Shown here in pieces: positions 1 to 14,073 of a DNA stretch of 14,187 bases. The stretch is from Candidatus Latescibacterota bacterium. Lineage in GTDB: Bacteria > JAAXHH01 > JACQVL01. The position numbers and the translations under genes are program-made. Within the stretch, counting starts at the first letter, position 1. Each line of letters starts with the position of its first letter. The stretch covers positions 1-14,187 of the forward strand of contig JACQVL010000292.1 in NCBI GenBank assembly GCA_016209865.1. Reading direction: 5' to 3'. Under the pieces are notes generated by a model that saw only the letters and a program-made list of their open reading frames with translations, had not been told where the DNA came from and did not search any database.

Positions 1-1213
1 GAGCGTCACTGGAGGATCGGTGAGGAAGGCTGAGATGGACGGGGAGAATCTGGCCGGACCGGGCTAAGATGGCCGCCCGTTCGATGATGTGGTGCAATTC
101 TCGCGCGTTGCCCGGGAACTCATAGCTCATCAGGTGCTGCTGAGCCTCCGGTGAAAACCCCTCGAACCGCAGCCCACGACGGGCCGCGTAGAGGGAGAGG
201 AAATGCTCCGCTAACGGGAGGATGTCTTCCCGCCGCTCCCGGAGCGGGGTCAGATGAATCGTGTACAGGTTGAGCCGGTAGAGCAGGTCACGGCGAAATT
301 TCCCGGCTTCGACGAGGTCTTCTAACAACGTGTTCGTCGCCGCCACCACCCGAACGTCGACGCTGACCTCTTTCGCCCCCCCGACTCGTCGGAGCGTCCG
401 GGTCTCCAGGACGCGCAGGAGAGCCGCCTGGGCGGAGGCGGACAGGTCCGCGATCTCGTCCAAGAAGAGTGTCCCCCCGTGCGCCAGCTCAAAGTACCCC
501 GCCCGGTCGACACTCGCCCCGGTGAACGCCCCTTTCACCGACCCGAACAACTCGCTCTCGATCAGCGAATCGGGAATGGCCGGACAGCTCACCGCGATGA
601 ACGGGCTGGAGTCCGAACCGGCCAGGAAATGAATCTCACGGGCGACGACCTCTTTGCCCGTGCCCGTCTCGCCCGTGATGAGGATCGTCTCGCACCCGGC
701 GTCGACCGCCTGCTGGATCTGATCGCGCACGCGCCGGATCGCCGGACTGATGCCCACCAGGCTGCGATTCCTCTGACGCGCGTCATCGGTCGCCTGAATC
801 CGCCCGACCGTCTCACGCAGGGCGCGCTTGTCCCGGCGCAGCGCGCGGACCCGGCTGGCTTTCTCTAACACCGCATCCAGCTCCAGCAGTTTCACCGGCT
901 TGGTCAGGAAATCCACCGCCCCTAAGCGCAGCGCCTGGATCGCCGTCTCCATGTTGCCGTGTCCGGTGATGAGGACGACCGACAGGTCGGGCTGGAGTTC
1001 CTGAGTCCTGGACAGGAGCGCCAGTCCGTCCATTCCGGGCATGAGGAGGTCTGTCAGTGCCAGGTCGTAATCGTGCTCCTGGATCATCTTCACCGCCGCC
1101 GCGCCGTTCCGGGCGCTGTCAACCCGGTGTCCGGACTCGCGCAGATAGTCCCCGATCGTCTGATGGATGATCTCCTCATCGTCGACGAGCAGGATCGCTA
1201 ACGACGTTTCCAT
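1..1213 (-). CDS. Sigma-54-dependent response regulator module with its own likely start (C-terminus beyond window)
   Basis: This is the regulator part of the longer frame, listed separately because ATG 1213 has a good AAGGAG eight bases upstream. Residues 1-120 form a receiver with the acidic pair D11-D12, phospho-acceptor Asp55 in ALTDLLMPG, and the conserved Lys of LTKPV. After a linker comes the AAA+ sigma-54 activator domain: Walker A GETGTGKE, the sigma-54 contact loop GAFTGA, Walker B GGTLFLDEI, an arginine-finger region FRRDLLYRLN, and PGNARELHHIIERA near the window edge. The family hydrolyses ATP to remodel the RNA polymerase-sigma-54 closed complex at enhancer-dependent promoters. 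The C-terminal Fis-type DNA-binding domain is expected just beyond position 1 and is not visible. Its target is unknown. The homogentisate genes directly upstream are a guess only, since I found no -24/-12 promoter in the window. Confidence 0.85.
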   Translation of the reverse strand, partial: METSLAILLVDDEEIIHQTIGDYLRESGHRVDSARNGAAAVKMIQEHDYDLALTDLLMPGMDGLALLSRTQELQPDLSVVLITGHGNMETAIQALRLGAVDFLTKPVKLLELDAVLEKASRVRALRRDKRALRETVGRIQATDDARQRNRSLVGISPAIRRVRDQIQQAVDAGCETILITGETGTGKEVVAREIHFLAGSDSSPFIAVSCPAIPDSLIESELFGSVKGAFTGASVDRAGYFELAHGGTLFLDEIADLSASAQAALLRVLETRTLRRVGGAKEVSVDVRVVAATNTLLEDLVEAGKFRRDLLYRLNLYTIHLTPLRERREDILPLAEHFLSLYAARRGLRFEGFSPEAQQHLMSYEFPGNARELHHIIERAAILARSGQILPVHLSLPHRSSSDA

Positions 1214-2845
1214 GATTGCGGCTCCTTTTTTACCGACCCCTGACCCCTGACCCCTGTAATCTGATTCCGCCGGCAGGGAAACCGTCACCGTCGTCCCCTG
1301 GCCGGGGGTTGACTGAATCGAGATCGTCCCGCCGAACTGCTCGATGATCGACCGGGAGATCGCCAATCCCAGCCCGGTCCCACGGTCGGGGCCTTTGGTC
1401 GTGAAGAACGGGTCGAACACCCGTGGGAGGATCGACTCGGGAATCCCGACCCCCTGGTCGATCACGTCAACCTGGACGTGGTGCGCCGGACCGTCCCCCT
1501 CGACCCGTGTCCGCACCAGCACGCGGGGGGAGTCGGCCATCGCGTCAGCGTGCAGTCGCTCCTCAGTCGCGTCGCGCGCGGTGACGAGGTTGTTCAACAC
1601 GACTTCTTCTAACGAGAACGGGTTCGCGGACACGACCGGCAGTCCGTCCGCCAGGTCGCACGCCAGCTCGATCCCGCGCGACCGGGACTGCACGTCTAAC
1701 ATGTCGATCGCCGCCCTGACCACGTCGTTGACCTGGACGGGCTGGCGTTCGAACTTGTCCGCTTCCCGGGCGAACATCCGCACGTGCTGGATGATGTGTG
1801 TCATCCTATCCGCCTGCTCGACGATCAGCCTGAGTTTCTCACGGATTTTGTCCTGGGTGAGGTTCCATCCCCGGTCGATCCCGATGAGGAGGTGCTCGGC
1901 CAGTCCTCGCACCCCGACGAGCGGCTGGTTGAGCTCGTGGGCGATCCCGGCGGCCATCTCGCCTAACGACCGCAGCCGGTCGGAGCGAATCGACAGCGTC
2001 CGCTGCGCCTCCAGCTCACGCGCCGTTGCCTGCCGGGCCTCCTCGGCCCGCTGGCGCTCCGCGTCTGTCCGGTTGAGGAATTTAGCGTACCACCAGATCA
2101 GGATGAGGAAACCGACGATGATCGAGATGACGAGGAGCGACACCCCGCGCTGGGTGTCGTAGAGGCCGAGACGCCCGCCCTCCAGCCTCAGCCAGCCCAG
2201 CACCGATGGGATGACGATCGCCGCCACGAACAGCCGCCGGGCCATCATCCCGCCCACTCCCTCGCTCGTCACGATGGCCATCAGGCCGCGGTCGGGACGA
2301 ACGCTGAGGACGCCCACGCCGAGGACGAGGAACGTCACCGCCGTGAGCAACGTCATGCCGGTATACGAGGAAATGCCGTAGAAGCGGTAGACATGGCCGC
2401 TCATCGCCAGGAGTGAGAGGATGCTGGCGATGAACGCGAAGTACTGGGCGGGCCGATAGCCCCGGCGTGTCTCCACATCGAGGAGCAGCAGGGCGAGACC
2501 GATCAGCACCCCGCTGAGGGAGGTGAGGAGGCTGAGGAGGACGACGAGGGAGGCAAAGAGGGCGGCGAGGAGGCGAGACGAATTTTGGATTTTGGATTTT
2601 GGATTTTGGATTGAAACGAGGACAGATTTTGAATCGAGCAGCCAGAGGGAGATGCCGGACAGGATGAACGTCAGCGCGATGGTGGCGGGTGCCGCGACCA
2701 GGAGAGGCGGCACGGAGACCTGCGGGGCGAGGTCGAGGAGCCAGCTAACGAACATCAGACTCCCGATCAGGGTTGCGAGCGCGCTGGCGACCCGTGCGAC
2801 TGTGTGGAACGACGCGAGGAGACGAGTGTTGGGATGCGAGGTCAT
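1..2845 (-). CDS. Membrane histidine kinase fused in frame to an NtrC-family sigma-54 response regulator (partial)
   Basis: One uninterrupted reading frame runs from ATG 2845 to the window start. Residues 1-544 form a sensor kinase. Several hydrophobic segments fill roughly residues 10-255, followed by a short coiled linker rich in Arg, Glu and Ala. The H-box reads GIAHELNQPL with phospho-acceptor His303, then comes an N-box (residues about 414-426), DQGVGIP, the F-box FDPFFTTK and the G2 box GTGLGLAIS, ending GQGTTVTVSLP. The usual second N-box Asn is Thr422. No stop follows: about 16 linker codons, including a translated heptamer repeat, lead into the regulator at Met545 (receiver, AAA+ domain). 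By family the kinase senses an unknown cue at the membrane and phosphorylates the receiver. Whether the cell makes one fused protein or also a free regulator from the internal start at 1213 is open. An alternative ATG at 2917, in frame and overlapping the upstream gene's stop as TGATG, would add 24 residues. Neither start has a strong ribosome site. Confidence 0.85.
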   Translation of the reverse strand, partial: MTSHPNTRLLASFHTVARVASALATLIGSLMFVSWLLDLAPQVSVPPLLVAAPATIALTFILSGISLWLLDSKSVLVSIQNPKSKIQNSSRLLAALFASLVVLLSLLTSLSGVLIGLALLLLDVETRRGYRPAQYFAFIASILSLLAMSGHVYRFYGISSYTGMTLLTAVTFLVLGVGVLSVRPDRGLMAIVTSEGVGGMMARRLFVAAIVIPSVLGWLRLEGGRLGLYDTQRGVSLLVISIIVGFLILIWWYAKFLNRTDAERQRAEEARQATARELEAQRTLSIRSDRLRSLGEMAAGIAHELNQPLVGVRGLAEHLLIGIDRGWNLTQDKIREKLRLIVEQADRMTHIIQHVRMFAREADKFERQPVQVNDVVRAAIDMLDVQSRSRGIELACDLADGLPVVSANPFSLEEVVLNNLVTARDATEERLHADAMADSPRVLVRTRVEGDGPAHHVQVDVIDQGVGIPESILPRVFDPFFTTKGPDRGTGLGLAISRSIIEQFGGTISIQSTPGQGTTVTVSLPAESDYRGQGSGVGKKGAAIMETSLAILLVDDEEIIHQTIGDYLRESGHRVDSARNGAAAVKMIQEHDYDLALTDLLMPGMDGLALLSRTQELQPDLSVVLITGHGNMETAIQALRLGAVDFLTKPVKLLELDAVLEKASRVRALRRDKRALRETVGRIQATDDARQRNRSLVGISPAIRRVRDQIQQAVDAGCETILITGETGTGKEVVAREIHFLAGSDSSPFIAVSCPAIPDSLIESELFGSVKGAFTGASVDRAGYFELAHGGTLFLDEIADLSASAQAALLRVLETRTLRRVGGAKEVSVDVRVVAATNTLLEDLVEAGKFRRDLLYRLNLYTIHLTPLRERREDILPLAEHFLSLYAARRGLRFEGFSPEAQQHLMSYEFPGNARELHHIIERAAILARSGQILPVHLSLPHRSSSDA
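1222..1227 (-). promoter_or_regulatory. Shine-Dalgarno site for the internal regulator start
   Basis: On the minus strand AAGGAG lies eight bases upstream of ATG 1213. It sits inside the open linker between kinase and regulator. It is the main evidence that the regulator can be translated independently even though no stop separates the two modules. Confidence 0.6.
1234..1254. repeat. Heptamer tandem array (TGACCCC), 3 units
   Basis: Three consecutive 7-bp units are present, the first as CGACCCC and the next two as TGACCCC. The array lies at the kinase-regulator junction. Read on the minus strand in the kinase frame it contributes the linker residues GQGSGV. The same unit occurs once in the array at 9093-9113. 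Confidence 0.9.
2583..2610. repeat. Heptamer tandem array (TTTTGGA), 4 perfect units, inside the kinase gene
   Basis: Four perfect copies of TTTTGGA occur in a row, inside the kinase coding sequence. On the minus strand they encode the hydrophilic peptide IQNPKSKIQN (about residues 79-88), which sits between two hydrophobic segments and so probably in a loop. The AT-rich block stands out sharply from its GC-rich surroundings and looks inserted. It keeps the frame open. Confidence 0.9.
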
Positions 2846-6798: not shown

Positions 6799-6827
6799 AA
6801 TATATCCTTGATGAAACGGATGGTCAA
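6799..6827 (-). promoter_or_regulatory. Sigma-70 type promoter for the homogentisate operon
   Basis: On the minus strand TTGACC (6822-6827) and TATATT (6799-6804) are separated by exactly 17 bases. The -35 box overlaps the TGA stop of GH29 copy 1 (6824-6826). Transcription would start near 6792, leaving a leader of about 70 bases with the octamer array and the AGGAGG site. Confidence 0.7.
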
Positions 6828-7834
6828 CCGTATTCGTTACTACGGCCCGGCCGGGTGCCGTAGACAGACTCCCCATGTACCGAGAGCCACGCCCCCAGCC
6901 CCCGCAGCCGCTCGACATGCTCCGGTTGGATTTCGCCCGACGGCATCGGTCCGACGTTGAGTAACAGATTGCTGTCCTGCTCGACGCACGCCACCAGGAA
7001 CTGTATCAACTCCGCCACGGATTTGTGAGCGTGGTCCTCCGAATGATACCCCCAGCTCTTGTTGATCGTCAGGCAGGACTCCAGGGGGCGATCCCCGATA
7101 GAGGGAGCGTTGAACCCCGCCGTATTCTCCCCCGGCAAGTCCTGCTCGAACATCTGAAAATCCTCTCCCGGCAGCGGCGTCACATGATGGTTGTTCCCGA
7201 TGAGCGCCTGCGGTTGCAGTTCGTGGATCAGGTCATACGTCTCGGCCAAATCCCAGGGACCGCCTTCCAGAAAATGGGCCGGGGAATCATGGGCGGGCCA
7301 GTAGCCGTCGAACCAGATCATGCCGATGTCGCCGTACTGCGTGCAGAGTTCGCGGACCTGACCCTGGTAGTAGGCGACGTAGGCGGGCCAGTCGGCGCGG
7401 TAGGCGGGATGATGCCAGTCGAGGAGGGAATAGTAGAAGCCGAGCACCAGGCCGCGCTGCCGACACGCCTCGGCCAGCTCGGCGACGGGATCGCGTCCGA
7501 ACGGCGTGTTCGTCACGCGATAATCCGTCAGCGCGCTGTCGAACATGCAGAACCCTTCGTGATGCTTGGTGTCGAAGACCATATACCGCTGTTCGGCCTC
7601 GACCATCAGATCGGCCCACTCGTCCGCGTGAAACCGGGTCGGGTTGAATCGGGGCGGGAGTTTTTCGTATTCATCGACCGGAATCTGCTCGGTGTGCATC
7701 ACCCATTCGCCATGACCGATGAGGGCGTAGACTCCCCAGTTGACGAACAGGCCGAAGCGCATCTCCTGAAACCGGCGTACCGCGTCAGAGGTGGCCTGCA
7801 GGCGGACGCAAGACATATCCTCGATAGGTCGCAT
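6824..7834 (-). CDS. GH29 alpha-L-fucosidase family protein, copy 1 (active-site His replaced by Asn)
   Basis: A 336-residue GH29 catalytic (beta/alpha)8 barrel. Motifs in order: FGLFVNWGVYA, HGEWVM, KHHEGFCMFDS, FYYSLLDWHH, MIWFDGYW with the likely nucleophile Asp176, and SNLLLNVGPMPSGEI near the end. Family members hydrolyse terminal alpha-L-fucose by a retaining mechanism. It has no signal peptide and no C-terminal beta-sandwich, so it is short for the family and probably cytoplasmic, acting on imported small glycosides. Residue 32 is Asn (AAC), where GH29 enzymes and copy 2 have a substrate-binding His, so activity may be lowered or specificity altered. ATG 7834 is chosen because GAGGAG lies six bases upstream and it aligns with the start of copy 2. 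It is about 83% identical to copy 2 by eye. Confidence 0.88.
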   Translation of the reverse strand: MRPIEDMSCVRLQATSDAVRRFQEMRFGLFVNWGVYALIGHGEWVMHTEQIPVDEYEKLPPRFNPTRFHADEWADLMVEAEQRYMVFDTKHHEGFCMFDSALTDYRVTNTPFGRDPVAELAEACRQRGLVLGFYYSLLDWHHPAYRADWPAYVAYYQGQVRELCTQYGDIGMIWFDGYWPAHDSPAHFLEGGPWDLAETYDLIHELQPQALIGNNHHVTPLPGEDFQMFEQDLPGENTAGFNAPSIGDRPLESCLTINKSWGYHSEDHAHKSVAELIQFLVACVEQDSNLLLNVGPMPSGEIQPEHVERLRGLGAWLSVHGESVYGTRPGRSNEYG

Positions 7835-7854
7835 GATAGGCTCCTCATGTTTTC

Positions 7855-7875
7855 TCGTCACTTGTCACTCATCAC
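7855..7875. repeat. Heptamer tandem array (TYRTCAC), 3 units, over a stop codon
   Basis: Three units follow one another: TCGTCAC, TTGTCAC, TCATCAC. The array spans the 3' end of the 391-residue gene, and the last unit supplies its TGA stop (7872-7874, minus strand). It also fills most of the gap before GH29 copy 1. Confidence 0.75.
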
Positions 7876-9047: not shown

Positions 9048-9092
9048 CGTTCTGTCCTGGCCTCTCTCAGTGGAGTTGACATGAGTCTTTTC

Positions 9093-9113
9093 TGACTCCT
9101 GACTCCTGACCCC
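9093..9113. repeat. Heptamer tandem array (TGACTCC/TGACCCC), 3 units
   Basis: Two TGACTCC units are followed by one TGACCCC unit, the same unit as the array at 1234-1254. It lies in the 74-bp gap between the dioxygenase stop and the start of the 391-residue gene. It is open in the downstream gene's frame, where it would read GVRSQESE. Confidence 0.9.
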
Positions 9114-9952: not shown

Positions 9953-10966
9953 TCATGTCTGGTGAGACGTCGGTCCCCGTCGGGAGCCGTAGACCGACGC
10001 CCCATGCTCCTTGAGCCACGCCCCCAGCCCCCGCAGCCGCTCGACATGCTCCGGCTGAATCTCCCCCAGCGGGGTTGGGCCGACGTTCAACAACAGATTG
10101 CTGTCCCGCTCGACGCACTGGCTGAGAAACCGGATCAGGTCGGGGACCGACTTGTGCTCATGATCGTTCGGGTTGTACCCCCAGTTCTTGTTGATCGTGA
10201 GACAGGATTCCAGGACTCGATCCCCGATAGAGGGCGCGTTGAACCCCGCCGTGTTCTCCCCCGGCAAATCCTGCTCGAACATCTGAAAATCCTCCCCCGG
10301 CAACGGCGTCACATGATGGTTGTTCCCGATCAACGCCTGGGGTTGGAGGGTGTGGATCAGGTCATACGTCCCGGCCAAGTCCCATGCCCCCCCTTCCAGA
10401 AAATGGGGCGCCGGCGGCTCATGGGCCGGCCAGTACCCGTCGAACCAGATCATCCCGATCTCCCCATACTGCGTGCACAGTTCGCGGACCTGGCCCTGGT
10501 AGTAGGCGACGTAGGCGGGCCAGCCGGCGCGGTAGGCGGGGTGATGCCAGTCGAGGAGGGAGTAGTAGAAGCCGAGCACCAGGCCGCGTTGCCGACACGC
10601 CGCCGCCAGCGCGGCGACGGGATCGCGTCCGAACGGGGTGTTGGTCACTTTGTAGGCGGTCAGCGCGCTGTCGAACATGCAGAACCCGTCATGATGCTTG
10701 CTGGTGATGACGATGTACCGCTGGCCGGATTCCACCATCAGGTCGGCCCAGGCATCGGCGTTGAAGTTGACGGGGTTGAACTGTGGGGGGAGTTTTTCAT
10801 ACTCCGGGATCGGAATCTGTTCGGTGTGCATCACCCATTCGCCATGACCGATGAGGGCGTAGACTCCCCAGTGGACGAACAGGCCGAAGCGCATCTCCTG
10901 AAACCGGCGCACCGCGTCGGGTGCGGCCCGGAGACGGACGCGAGACATGTCTTCGATCGGACGCAT
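9953..10966 (-). CDS. GH29 alpha-L-fucosidase family protein, copy 2
   Basis: A 337-residue paralogue of the gene at 6824-7834, keeping the full active site. It has His32 in FGLFVHWGVYA, HGEWVM, the His pair of KHHDGFCMFDS, the tyrosine-containing FYYSLLDWHH and the likely nucleophile Asp176 in MIWFDGYW. It should be the catalytically standard copy, removing alpha-L-fucose inside the cell. ATG 10966 has AAGGAG six bases upstream; an open frame extends 12 codons further but lacks support. It is the first gene of the minus-strand cassette, so its promoter should lie in 10967-11163, though I see no convincing boxes on that strand. It has one extra Pro in the loop after the nucleophile compared with copy 1, and the C-termini diverge. 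Confidence 0.9.
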   Translation of the reverse strand: MRPIEDMSRVRLRAAPDAVRRFQEMRFGLFVHWGVYALIGHGEWVMHTEQIPIPEYEKLPPQFNPVNFNADAWADLMVESGQRYIVITSKHHDGFCMFDSALTAYKVTNTPFGRDPVAALAAACRQRGLVLGFYYSLLDWHHPAYRAGWPAYVAYYQGQVRELCTQYGEIGMIWFDGYWPAHEPPAPHFLEGGAWDLAGTYDLIHTLQPQALIGNNHHVTPLPGEDFQMFEQDLPGENTAGFNAPSIGDRVLESCLTINKNWGYNPNDHEHKSVPDLIRFLSQCVERDSNLLLNVGPTPLGEIQPEHVERLRGLGAWLKEHGASVYGSRRGPTSHQT

Positions 10967-11125
10967 GGTGGGCTCCTTTCGCTCTGCTGTCGAAGTCGGC
11001 ATCCCCGGCCTTGTGATGGAGAATGCTCTTCATCCTGGTTTCTGCGCTGTCTAAGCCGTAGGGGGGATATTGGAGGTCATTATTGTGGTACCCTGCCGAG
11101 TGTACCTTGAAAAAATCAGAAAAAG

Positions 11126-11146
11126 GGTTGACTAATCAAGTAAACC
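11126..11146. promoter_or_regulatory. Imperfect inverted repeat over the -35 box (candidate operator)
   Basis: Arms GGTTGACTA (11126-11134) and AAGTAAACC (11138-11146) are inverted repeats with 7 of 9 matches around a 3-base centre. The repeat covers the -35 hexamer and part of the spacer, where a bound dimer would block polymerase. The adjacent gene encodes an XRE-type domain, so autoregulation is plausible but not shown. Confidence 0.4.
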
Positions 11147-11156
11147 GTGTTATTAT
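11128..11156 (+). promoter_or_regulatory. Sigma-70 type promoter of the methyltransferase gene
   Basis: TTGACT (11128-11133) and TATTAT (11151-11156) are 17 bases apart. The expected start of transcription, six to eight bases after the -10 box, falls on or next to the ATG at 11164, and no ribosome site precedes that ATG. The message would be leaderless. Confidence 0.65.
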
Positions 11157-11163
11157 TAAAAAT

Positions 11164-12510
11164 ATGAGCAACCATGTGATCAGACAAAGATCATCGGAAC
11201 CCCTCGATCGAGTGGAACTGGGCCGGCGCCTGCGGGCAGCGCGAGTAGCCGCGGACCTGTCCCTTGCTGCACTCGCTGCCAGGATAAAGGTAACGAAAGG
11301 CTATCTGTCCCGAGTAGAGCGCGGACAGACACGACCCTCAGCCTTGATGATTGAGCGTATCGCTAAGGCTGTCGGCACTGATCCCAGCCTTCTCTGTCTC
11401 CTGGCAGGTTACTTTCCTCCCGATGTCACACAAATCCTTTCCAGCCACCCTGTGGAGGCACCAGCCGTACTTCGAGAGACCTTTGCTCCGTACGGGAGCC
11501 ATACCGAAGCTCGACAAGCGAGCACGAATATTCACGCGTCTGTGCCTGCTACTTCTAAGCAGATACATACAAGGACAGAACTGGAAACTCCTTACGAGGT
11601 TGTCCACACTGACTGTATCGAGTGGTTAGAACATCGTGCGGCCAACAGTATTCATGCTATTGTCACAGATCCGCCTTATGGACTTAAGGAATACACCGAT
11701 GAGGAGAAAAATAAGTTGCGACGTGGACGAGGTGGTGTGTGGCGCATACCTCCAACTTTTGACGGATGCACGAGACGACCTCTTCCACGGTTCACCGTTC
11801 TCACAGACCAGGAAAAGGTAGCGCTCCGCGATTTTTTCCTCCGTTGGGCCACACTGGTATTCAGGGTACTTGTACCCGGTGGCCACGTCTGCATTGCCAC
11901 TAACCCTCTCGTCTCGCACCTGGTTTATCTGCCTATGATAGAGGCTGGTTTTGAAAAACGCGGAGAAATTCTACGCTTAGTTCAGACGCTACGAGGAGGC
12001 GATCGACCTAAGAACGCCCACCAAGAATTTAACGATGTCACTGTCATGCCTCGCTCGTGCTGGGAGCCGTGGGGTCTCTTCAGGAAGCCCTGCGAGGGCA
12101 GAGTGCAAGACAACCTGAGAAAGTGGAAAACAGGGGGGCTTCGACGCCTCTCCGACGAGCAGCCCTTTTCCGATGTGATCAAAAGTGCACCCACGCGTAG
12201 TACCGAGCGCGATATCGCCTCACATCCTTCTCTAAAACCCCAGGCCTTCATGCGCCAGATTGTTCGTGCTGTGCTCCCGCTAAGCGAGGGGATCATCCTG
12301 GATCCATTCATGGGAGGAGGATCTACTATCGCTGCGGCCTGCGCGGTCGGGTACCGAAGCATCGGGATTGAGTCTGACCCGGAATTTTACGCGATGGCGG
12401 TGCAAGCCATTCCACGGCTTGCGGCATTAGTCCCCAACGGCGATAGTAACAGGACAATGACAGAAGTAGCTCCCTATGAAAACATCCAGCAAACCTTGTT
12501 TGAGAATTGA
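11164..12510 (+). CDS. XRE helix-turn-helix fused to a beta-class DNA methyltransferase
   Basis: A 448-residue protein. Residues about 16-80 (ELGRRLRAARVAADLSLAALA, VTKGYLSRVERGQTRPS) form a Cro/C1-type DNA-binding domain. After a linker, DPPYG (Asp169-Tyr172) is catalytic motif IV of amino-methyltransferases, and DPFMGGGST (from Asp380) is the S-adenosylmethionine motif. Motif IV before motif I with the target region between marks the beta class. DPPY favours N6-adenine over N4-cytosine. HPSLKP just before motif I is typical of this class. It should methylate DNA at an unknown sequence and perhaps repress its own promoter. No restriction enzyme is seen; an insertion sequence starts ten bases after the stop. 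The base composition is AT-richer and the strand opposite to the neighbours, suggesting transfer. ATG 11164 is chosen because the HTH domain follows closely. A TTG at 11083 behind GGAGG is the alternative and would translate the promoter. Confidence 0.85.
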   Translation: MSNHVIRQRSSEPLDRVELGRRLRAARVAADLSLAALAARIKVTKGYLSRVERGQTRPSALMIERIAKAVGTDPSLLCLLAGYFPPDVTQILSSHPVEAPAVLRETFAPYGSHTEARQASTNIHASVPATSKQIHTRTELETPYEVVHTDCIEWLEHRAANSIHAIVTDPPYGLKEYTDEEKNKLRRGRGGVWRIPPTFDGCTRRPLPRFTVLTDQEKVALRDFFLRWATLVFRVLVPGGHVCIATNPLVSHLVYLPMIEAGFEKRGEILRLVQTLRGGDRPKNAHQEFNDVTVMPRSCWEPWGLFRKPCEGRVQDNLRKWKTGGLRRLSDEQPFSDVIKSAPTRSTERDIASHPSLKPQAFMRQIVRAVLPLSEGIILDPFMGGGSTIAAACAVGYRSIGIESDPEFYAMAVQAIPRLAALVPNGDSNRTMTEVAPYENIQQTLFEN

Positions 12511-12664: not shown

Positions 12665-14073
12665 CTATCGGGAGAAGGCCGCGACGAGGGGGGGCATCAC
12701 CTCGCGTAATGTCTGGCCTTGAGCCAGGGCCGTCGCGATCAAGGTCGCCAATGCCCAGAGGGCCTGCCCTTGTGTGTTCCGACGCCACAAGCCTGCTGAG
12801 CCGTCAAGCTCGGTCTTGACAGGGCGTTGAAGTTTGTGAAGCAAGGCGGGATCGTGGGGGGGGCTCGCAGTAAACTGTAGGGGACGGCGACCAGGGCGAT
12901 CTGCCGGGCTATCGCTTGGAAGTCCCGCACCTGATCCTGATCGAGACCCTCCGCTTTGCCTTCTTCGTGAGAGACTTCAACGGGCCAGCGGTGGCGGCGG
13001 ATGCGAGTGAGGCCGCCGGCGTGCCAGTGCAGTTTGTTAGAGATCAAGAACACGGCGGCATCGGACAGGTCCGCGGTCCGATGGTTGATGACCACGCGCT
13101 GCTTCCCACAGTGGTGGATTCGATGGGTCTGGCAATAACTGTAATAGGTCTCTTGGGCTCCTTTGTAGGCGATCGTGATTTTCCGAAAGCTGGGGGCCCC
13201 GCCCCCTTGGAGGGCCTGGGCGTGTTCGGCTTGCAACTGGCGGTCAAAGTCCTCGACGCGTTGGACCCCAGTGGTCAAGCTGACCCGCGCATCCCCCGTG
13301 AGCGGGCCCCCAGAGGCCAGCTTGAGGGTCTGATCCACAAACCGACAAAACGCCGGTTGGGTCTACCAGGTGTCGAACGTGACCGGCAAGCGGCCCTGGG
13401 GGTGCTCCGCGATGAACTGCGCCAGCAGCGCTTGGGCGATCAGGAGCTTACTCTGATACAACTGCTGCACAGCGGGCTTGTGCTGGTGCCGTCGCCACAA
13501 ACTCAACAGAGACTGACGCCACGTTTTCGGATCGCGCTCTTTGAGTCCCAGCTTGCTGGGACGGATGGCCACGCCCGCTGCGGTGAACCCCGCTTCCAAC
13601 TCGGGGAGGTCCGCCGGTTGCCATAACTGGAAGGGGAGGGGAGAGTCGGTCTGATCATCACTCTAATGGAGATTGACCAGATTGTGGGCCCACACCGAGC
13701 CCTCCTGGGTCGGATCATACAGAGAGGCGATCTTGTCAAACTCATGGCCATAGTGGGGCAACCGCGTCTCGTCGACACTCAACACCCCCGTGGGTTTCCT
13801 CTGGGTCCCCGGGAGACTCGCCAGGAGGGCTAAGCGCGCCCGGTGTAACGCCTCGACCGAAAACGGACTCGCGGTTAACCGCCGATTCAGACTGCTTTGA
13901 TGACGGACATCGAGCACAAAGAGCCGATTGATCCCGTCGACGGTCTTGTTCTCAGAGACGATCAAGCCACTGCTATCTCGTTTAAACTGTGCCAACGCCT
14001 CCGGAGAAAAGACCGACGTAAAAAACGACTCGTAGTGACGCACAATCTCTGGAATTTCAACCAAGGGCAGCAT
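12665..14073 (-). pseudogene. IS701-family DDE transposase, broken by two amber stops and a frameshift
   Basis: Read from ATG 14073, the frame gives MLPLVEIPEIVRHYESFF and NKTVDGINRLFVLDVRHQSS, typical of IS701-type transposases. The first catalytic Asp is D101 in GVLSVDETRLPHYGH. TAG at 13663-13665 interrupts it after NLVNLH, and another TAG at 13363-13365 follows RLPVTFDTW, which holds the second Asp. Both lie in one frame and are single-base changes from Tyr codons. The frame continues through RRHRWPVEVSHEEGKAEGL (the Glu region) to a run of eight G at 12856-12863. A one-base slip there shifts the frame. Restoring it gives HDPALLHKLQ and VMPPLVAAFSR with a stop at 12665. The intact protein would be about 469 residues. 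Without repair this copy cannot transpose itself, but its ends could still be mobilised. Confidence 0.88.

Follow-up and report, generated by a model that had tools for sequence, protein, structure and literature searches.

Short arrays of G-rich heptamers are dispersed in the genomes of Xanthomonas and Nostoc, where, according to the accessible part of Rehm et al. 2015 (PMC4692102), they prefer four units and lie on the sense strand at stop codons or within 50 bp of them. The GGGGTCA arrays of the genome described here (G000; a MAG of 3.75 Mb in 356 contigs, estimated to be 83% complete) are alike in being dispersed and G-rich, in the 7-bp unit, in the preference for four units and in the proximity to stop codons. 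They differ in the sequence of the unit, which is GGGAATC or GGGGA(C/T)T in Rehm et al., and in that the flank often bears a stop and the loss of a unit appears to fuse genes, features that the accessible part of that paper does not report (PMC4692102). The TAACTGA heptamers of the Beggiatoaceae (MacGregor 2015) are also dispersed, some overlap stop codons, and they share with GGGGTCA a strand asymmetry, one orientation carrying a stop in every frame and the other staying open. Unlike the arrays studied here they lie mostly upstream of start codons, and the accessible part of that paper describes no fusion of neighbouring genes (PMC4679880). Joining of two genes in dependence on repeat length is already known: in NgoAV the repeat length sets whether the adjacent genes hsdS1 and hsdS2 are separate or fused, as at the present locus, but there the repeat is a homopolymer poly-G, the genes are restriction specificity genes and the variation was shown across strains (PMC9577141). 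Chains with both a membrane kinase and a DNA-binding regulator are familiar from the hybrid two-component systems (HTCS) of Bacteroides. These form a conserved family, marked by a conserved inhibitory REC-DBD motif and lacking the sigma-54 AAA+ domain, and in most members the domain arrangement is of a special inhibitory kind, whereas the fusion described below occurs in a single genome (PMC11253607). The GGGGTCA arrays are a known class of repeat that would act here in a way we have not found described, and a literature search, mostly without subscription papers, yielded no direct precedent for a kinase/NtrC fusion.

The kinase-regulator frame and its junction

The analysed window of 14,187 nucleotides is an entire contig (C251). 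On its minus strand, to which all coordinates of the kinase and regulator refer, the ORF list and translation show one frame open from ATG 2845 to position 1 (1..2845, at least 947 codons). ATG 2845 agrees with the start of the orthologue in genome G001, and a GTG at 2920, upstream, is likewise in frame. An effect of window truncation was rejected for the open end, as position 1 is the true end of the contig; the 3' end of the regulator and its DNA-binding domain are therefore missing from view. Pfam assigns to the one chain, in this order, HisKA, HATPase_c, a linker, Response_reg, Sigma54_activat and an AAA lid. The kinase half begins with a membrane region of several predicted hydrophobic helices (approximately 2090..2803, from Kyte-Doolittle only), followed by the HisKA domain (1766..1966) with an intact H-box (MAAGIAHELNQP) and the HATPase_c domain (1265..1612). 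In the NtrC-type regulator (1..1213) the receiver occupies 869-1195, the sigma-54 AAA+ domain 254-757 and the lid 17-241; the Walker A motif GETGTGKE and GAFTGA are readable in the translation, and the contig stops within the lid, short of any C-terminal helix-turn-helix. A HisKA and HATPase_c kinase thus adjoins a REC and sigma-54 AAA+ regulator, the composition of an NtrB/NtrC-type pair. The frame passes without interruption through kinase, receiver and output ATPase, and the fusion is confirmed as real in the assembled sequence.

Behind the kinase end TVSLP the frame goes on for 19 codons as AESDYRGQGSGVGKKGAAI (1214..1270) up to the regulator ATG 1213; the first-pass annotation had recognised the open frame, but with a linker of about 16 codons. 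It had also placed a heptamer array in the linker and ascribed an AAGGAG of its own to the regulator, and both are present. The array lies at 1234..1254, and its three units read GGGGTCA, GGGGTCA and GGGGTCG on the gene strand; the ribosome-binding site AAGGAG lies at 1222..1227, 8 nt upstream of ATG 1213. Since these start signals are intact, free regulator is probably still made beside the fused product. For a possible G-quadruplex the array offers three GGGG tracts only, and its right flank reads G-TAA; this TAA (1230..1232), directly after the array, is out of frame at three units and would be in frame at four. An open frame across the array is unsurprising, because GGGGTCA repeats hold no stop in any frame of the gene strand; on the opposite strand TGACCCC has a stop in every frame at three or more units. 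About one phase in three from the array leads into the regulator frame. In a simulation of unit number the kinase stopped at the TAA, which precedes the regulator ATG by 19 nt, with 1, 4 or 7 units and at a TAG 13 nt inside the regulator, as an overlap, with 2 or 5 units, while 3 or 6 units gave the fusion.

The remainder of the window holds two alpha-L-fucosidase-like genes that resemble each other and point the same way, likely a duplication (6824-7861 and 9953-11002), an ORF resembling an XRE-type helix-turn-helix domain plus a DNA methyltransferase (11083-12510), and, on the minus strand, fragments resembling a broken transposase (12739-14073).

GGGGTCA arrays in the genome and a second readthrough

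Fifty-four distinct arrays with at least two perfect GGGGTCA units were found in the genome, by which the idea of array insertion as a rare event was discarded. With variants allowed, 37 of the 54 have four units, seven have three, eight have two and two have five. A sense-strand gene end lies within about 60 nt of 24 arrays, before the array in nine cases and after it in 15. In their dispersal, the prevalence of four units and the placement near sense-strand gene ends these arrays agree with the type of Rehm et al. The window itself has another GGGGTCA/GGAGTCA array at 9092-9113, about 8 nt past the stop of a phytanoyl-CoA dioxygenase-like gene and on its sense strand; this is the usual placement, and the genes there are separate. 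Inverted array pairs 110-195 bp apart are frequent (L019, L030, L128, L131, L139, L143, L144, L145); they may represent a small mobile cassette or else a terminator shared by convergent genes.

Seven genes enter a four-unit array whose right flank bears a stop; six of them (L025, L030 minus, L136, L139, L144 and L146; the exception is L132) stop at +1, the position of the flank TAA. The kinase, with three units, and a second locus, L140, with two, would stop at the flank TAA if four units were present. Eight of nine arrays are in one phase; if phases were random, this would be expected with a probability of about 0.001, in a calculation whose nine arrays were picked after the pattern had been seen. 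At L140 (2289-2302; contig C216 near 3288) the frame of a Ham1/RdgB homologue crosses a two-unit array and continues into the small gene that follows, which it enters at AGGAGG..ATG, a ribosome-site layout as in the kinase case. Four units would separate the two genes by a stop at the flank TAA. The Ham1 orthologues of 12 same-order genomes match the query at residues 1 to about 197 only, without a stop and in frames of about 200 aa; the tail is therefore specific to genome G000. L007, L027 and L137 were rejected as further fusions, as their translations place each array inside an apparent single gene; these in-frame four-unit arrays lie in a sugar nucleotidyltransferase, an ATPase-like protein and a formate-dehydrogenase-like subunit.

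The four-unit norm, the phase of the flank TAA and the L140 case together make the loss of a unit from a stop-bearing array the best account of the junction. The membrane histidine kinase and the NtrC-type regulator would once have been ordinary neighbouring genes, and a four-unit GGGGTCA array followed by G-TAA at the kinase 3' end would have supplied the kinase stop. The loss of one 7-bp unit, suggested by the array pattern, would have put the TAA out of frame, and the kinase frame, seen to be open, would from then on have run into the regulator because the repeat is stop-free on the gene strand. That two genes had lost the stop between them by way of the array was already proposed in the first-pass annotation, and the separate orthologues, the dispersed nature of the array and the out-of-frame G-TAA support it well; the insertion or expansion of an array suspected there gives way to a reduction of the usual four units by one.

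An assembly artefact would explain the junction differently: the true array would have four units, or another indel would be present, and the genes would be separate. The MAG is fragmented into 356 contigs, and about 54 near-identical arrays could mislead an assembly; against this, the 21-bp array fits inside one short read, arrays of four and five units were retained in the same assembly, and the flanks are syntenic with G001, by which a chimeric join was rejected. We consider such an artefact unlikely. A contingency switch, with the unit number toggling within the population between fused (3, 6), TAA-separated (1, 4, 7) and overlapping (2, 5) genes, would also produce a three-unit fusion. 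The simulation yields exactly these three states, other loci have two to five units, and poly-G length does likewise for hsdS1/hsdS2 in NgoAV (PMC9577141). The dominance of four units, however, argues for stability. A heptamer array of three units is also short for frequent slippage. Rehm et al. thought similar arrays unlikely to be devices of phase variation and found the repeat regions stable (PMC4692102), and a switch appears improbable to us. About as improbable is the wider proposal of the array as a portable gene terminus, the unit number of which would reversibly join and separate neighbours at two or more loci and create mixed populations of free and membrane-tethered sigma-54 activator.

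Related genomes and the kinase half

The comparison of the junction with related genomes, recommended in the first-pass annotation, revealed separate genes in the orthologues. Kinase and regulator are two genes with an ATGA overlap in G001, a genome of the same order; in G122 the regulator lies in the kinase frame with a TGA between, G119 and G120 have a stop at the junction, and in G011 the two genes are on different contigs. The one-chain architecture is therefore not conserved among these five genomes. In G055 the regulator has no kinase beside it, and a related kinase domain lies on a different contig. The G011 regulator (L122:1447-2539) shows an apparent frameshift split between the receiver and ATPase domains. 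The junction array was absent from all orthologues whose junction sequences were compared, and a search of 58 other genomes for the perfect three-unit pattern GGGGTCAGGGGTCAGGGGTCA gave no match. As judged from these sequences, the fusion is specific to genome G000.

Among about 200 listed matches spanning both halves, which were the best matches per search and were counted by eye with a method blind to out-of-frame pairs, only the window and G145:C1:1099073-1100935 were stop-free. The G145 protein is an uninterrupted membrane HK-REC-AAA+-HTH chain of 1079 aa. An HK-REC-AAA+ chain as something unprecedented was rejected on this ground; the fused layout is rare, not unique, and the earlier view of an uncommon architecture stands with the addition that it is already known in G145.

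In translation the kinase retains the H, G1, F and G2 motifs, with the phospho-acceptor histidine and the G boxes present in AHELNQP, DQGVGIP and GTGLGL. The conserved asparagine of the N-box is replaced by Thr422 (ACC, 1580..1582): Asn fills this column in the close orthologues as well as in 61 relatives of the alignment, the few other letters standing in visibly misaligned contexts or gaps. Dutta and Inouye 1996, a paper cited in the reference list of PMC2688746, describe the EnvZ substitution N347D in their title as kinase-minus and phosphatase-plus. With Thr in the N-box the present protein probably has little or no kinase activity; the threonine might also be an assembly error or a tolerated change. 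A second dispersed heptamer array, of the ATTTTGG family, lies in the membrane region (2582..2612) and is translated as IQNPKSKIQN; this family occurs in dozens of places in the genome.

A functional fusion would unite membrane sensor, kinase and sigma-54 activator in one chain, with phosphotransfer inside it, as in the Bacteroides hybrid two-component systems. The frames are long and intact with most catalytic motifs in both halves, G145 has an uninterrupted protein of this order, and the HTCS proteins show that the principle works (PMC11253607). The linker, however, is a mere translated repeat, and no orthologue conserves the fusion. The loss of the N-box asparagine and the retained ribosome-binding site of the regulator make a working membrane-tethered activator doubtful. 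The membrane-tethered sigma-54 activator envisaged in the first-pass annotation has accordingly lost ground, and we hold a functional fusion to be unlikely.

Origin and meaning of the fusion

We consider it rather probable that the fusion is a recent, near-neutral accident that followed the loss of an array unit in a gene pair under relaxed constraint, and no purpose-built one-chain sensor. The 530 codons of the kinase without frameshifts are no obvious pseudogene, which counts against an accident; a conserved, working one-chain sensor is nevertheless the less likely of the two. For a dispersed tandem repeat, the unit loss proposed here would be a concrete route to the fusion of operon neighbours, consisting of a stop-free strand, a stop-bearing flank and the loss of a unit. 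Two independent cases in the same genome make this route testable. For annotation the fusion is also a warning, since a kinase and regulator annotated as one chain in a MAG may have been joined by an accident of a repeat.
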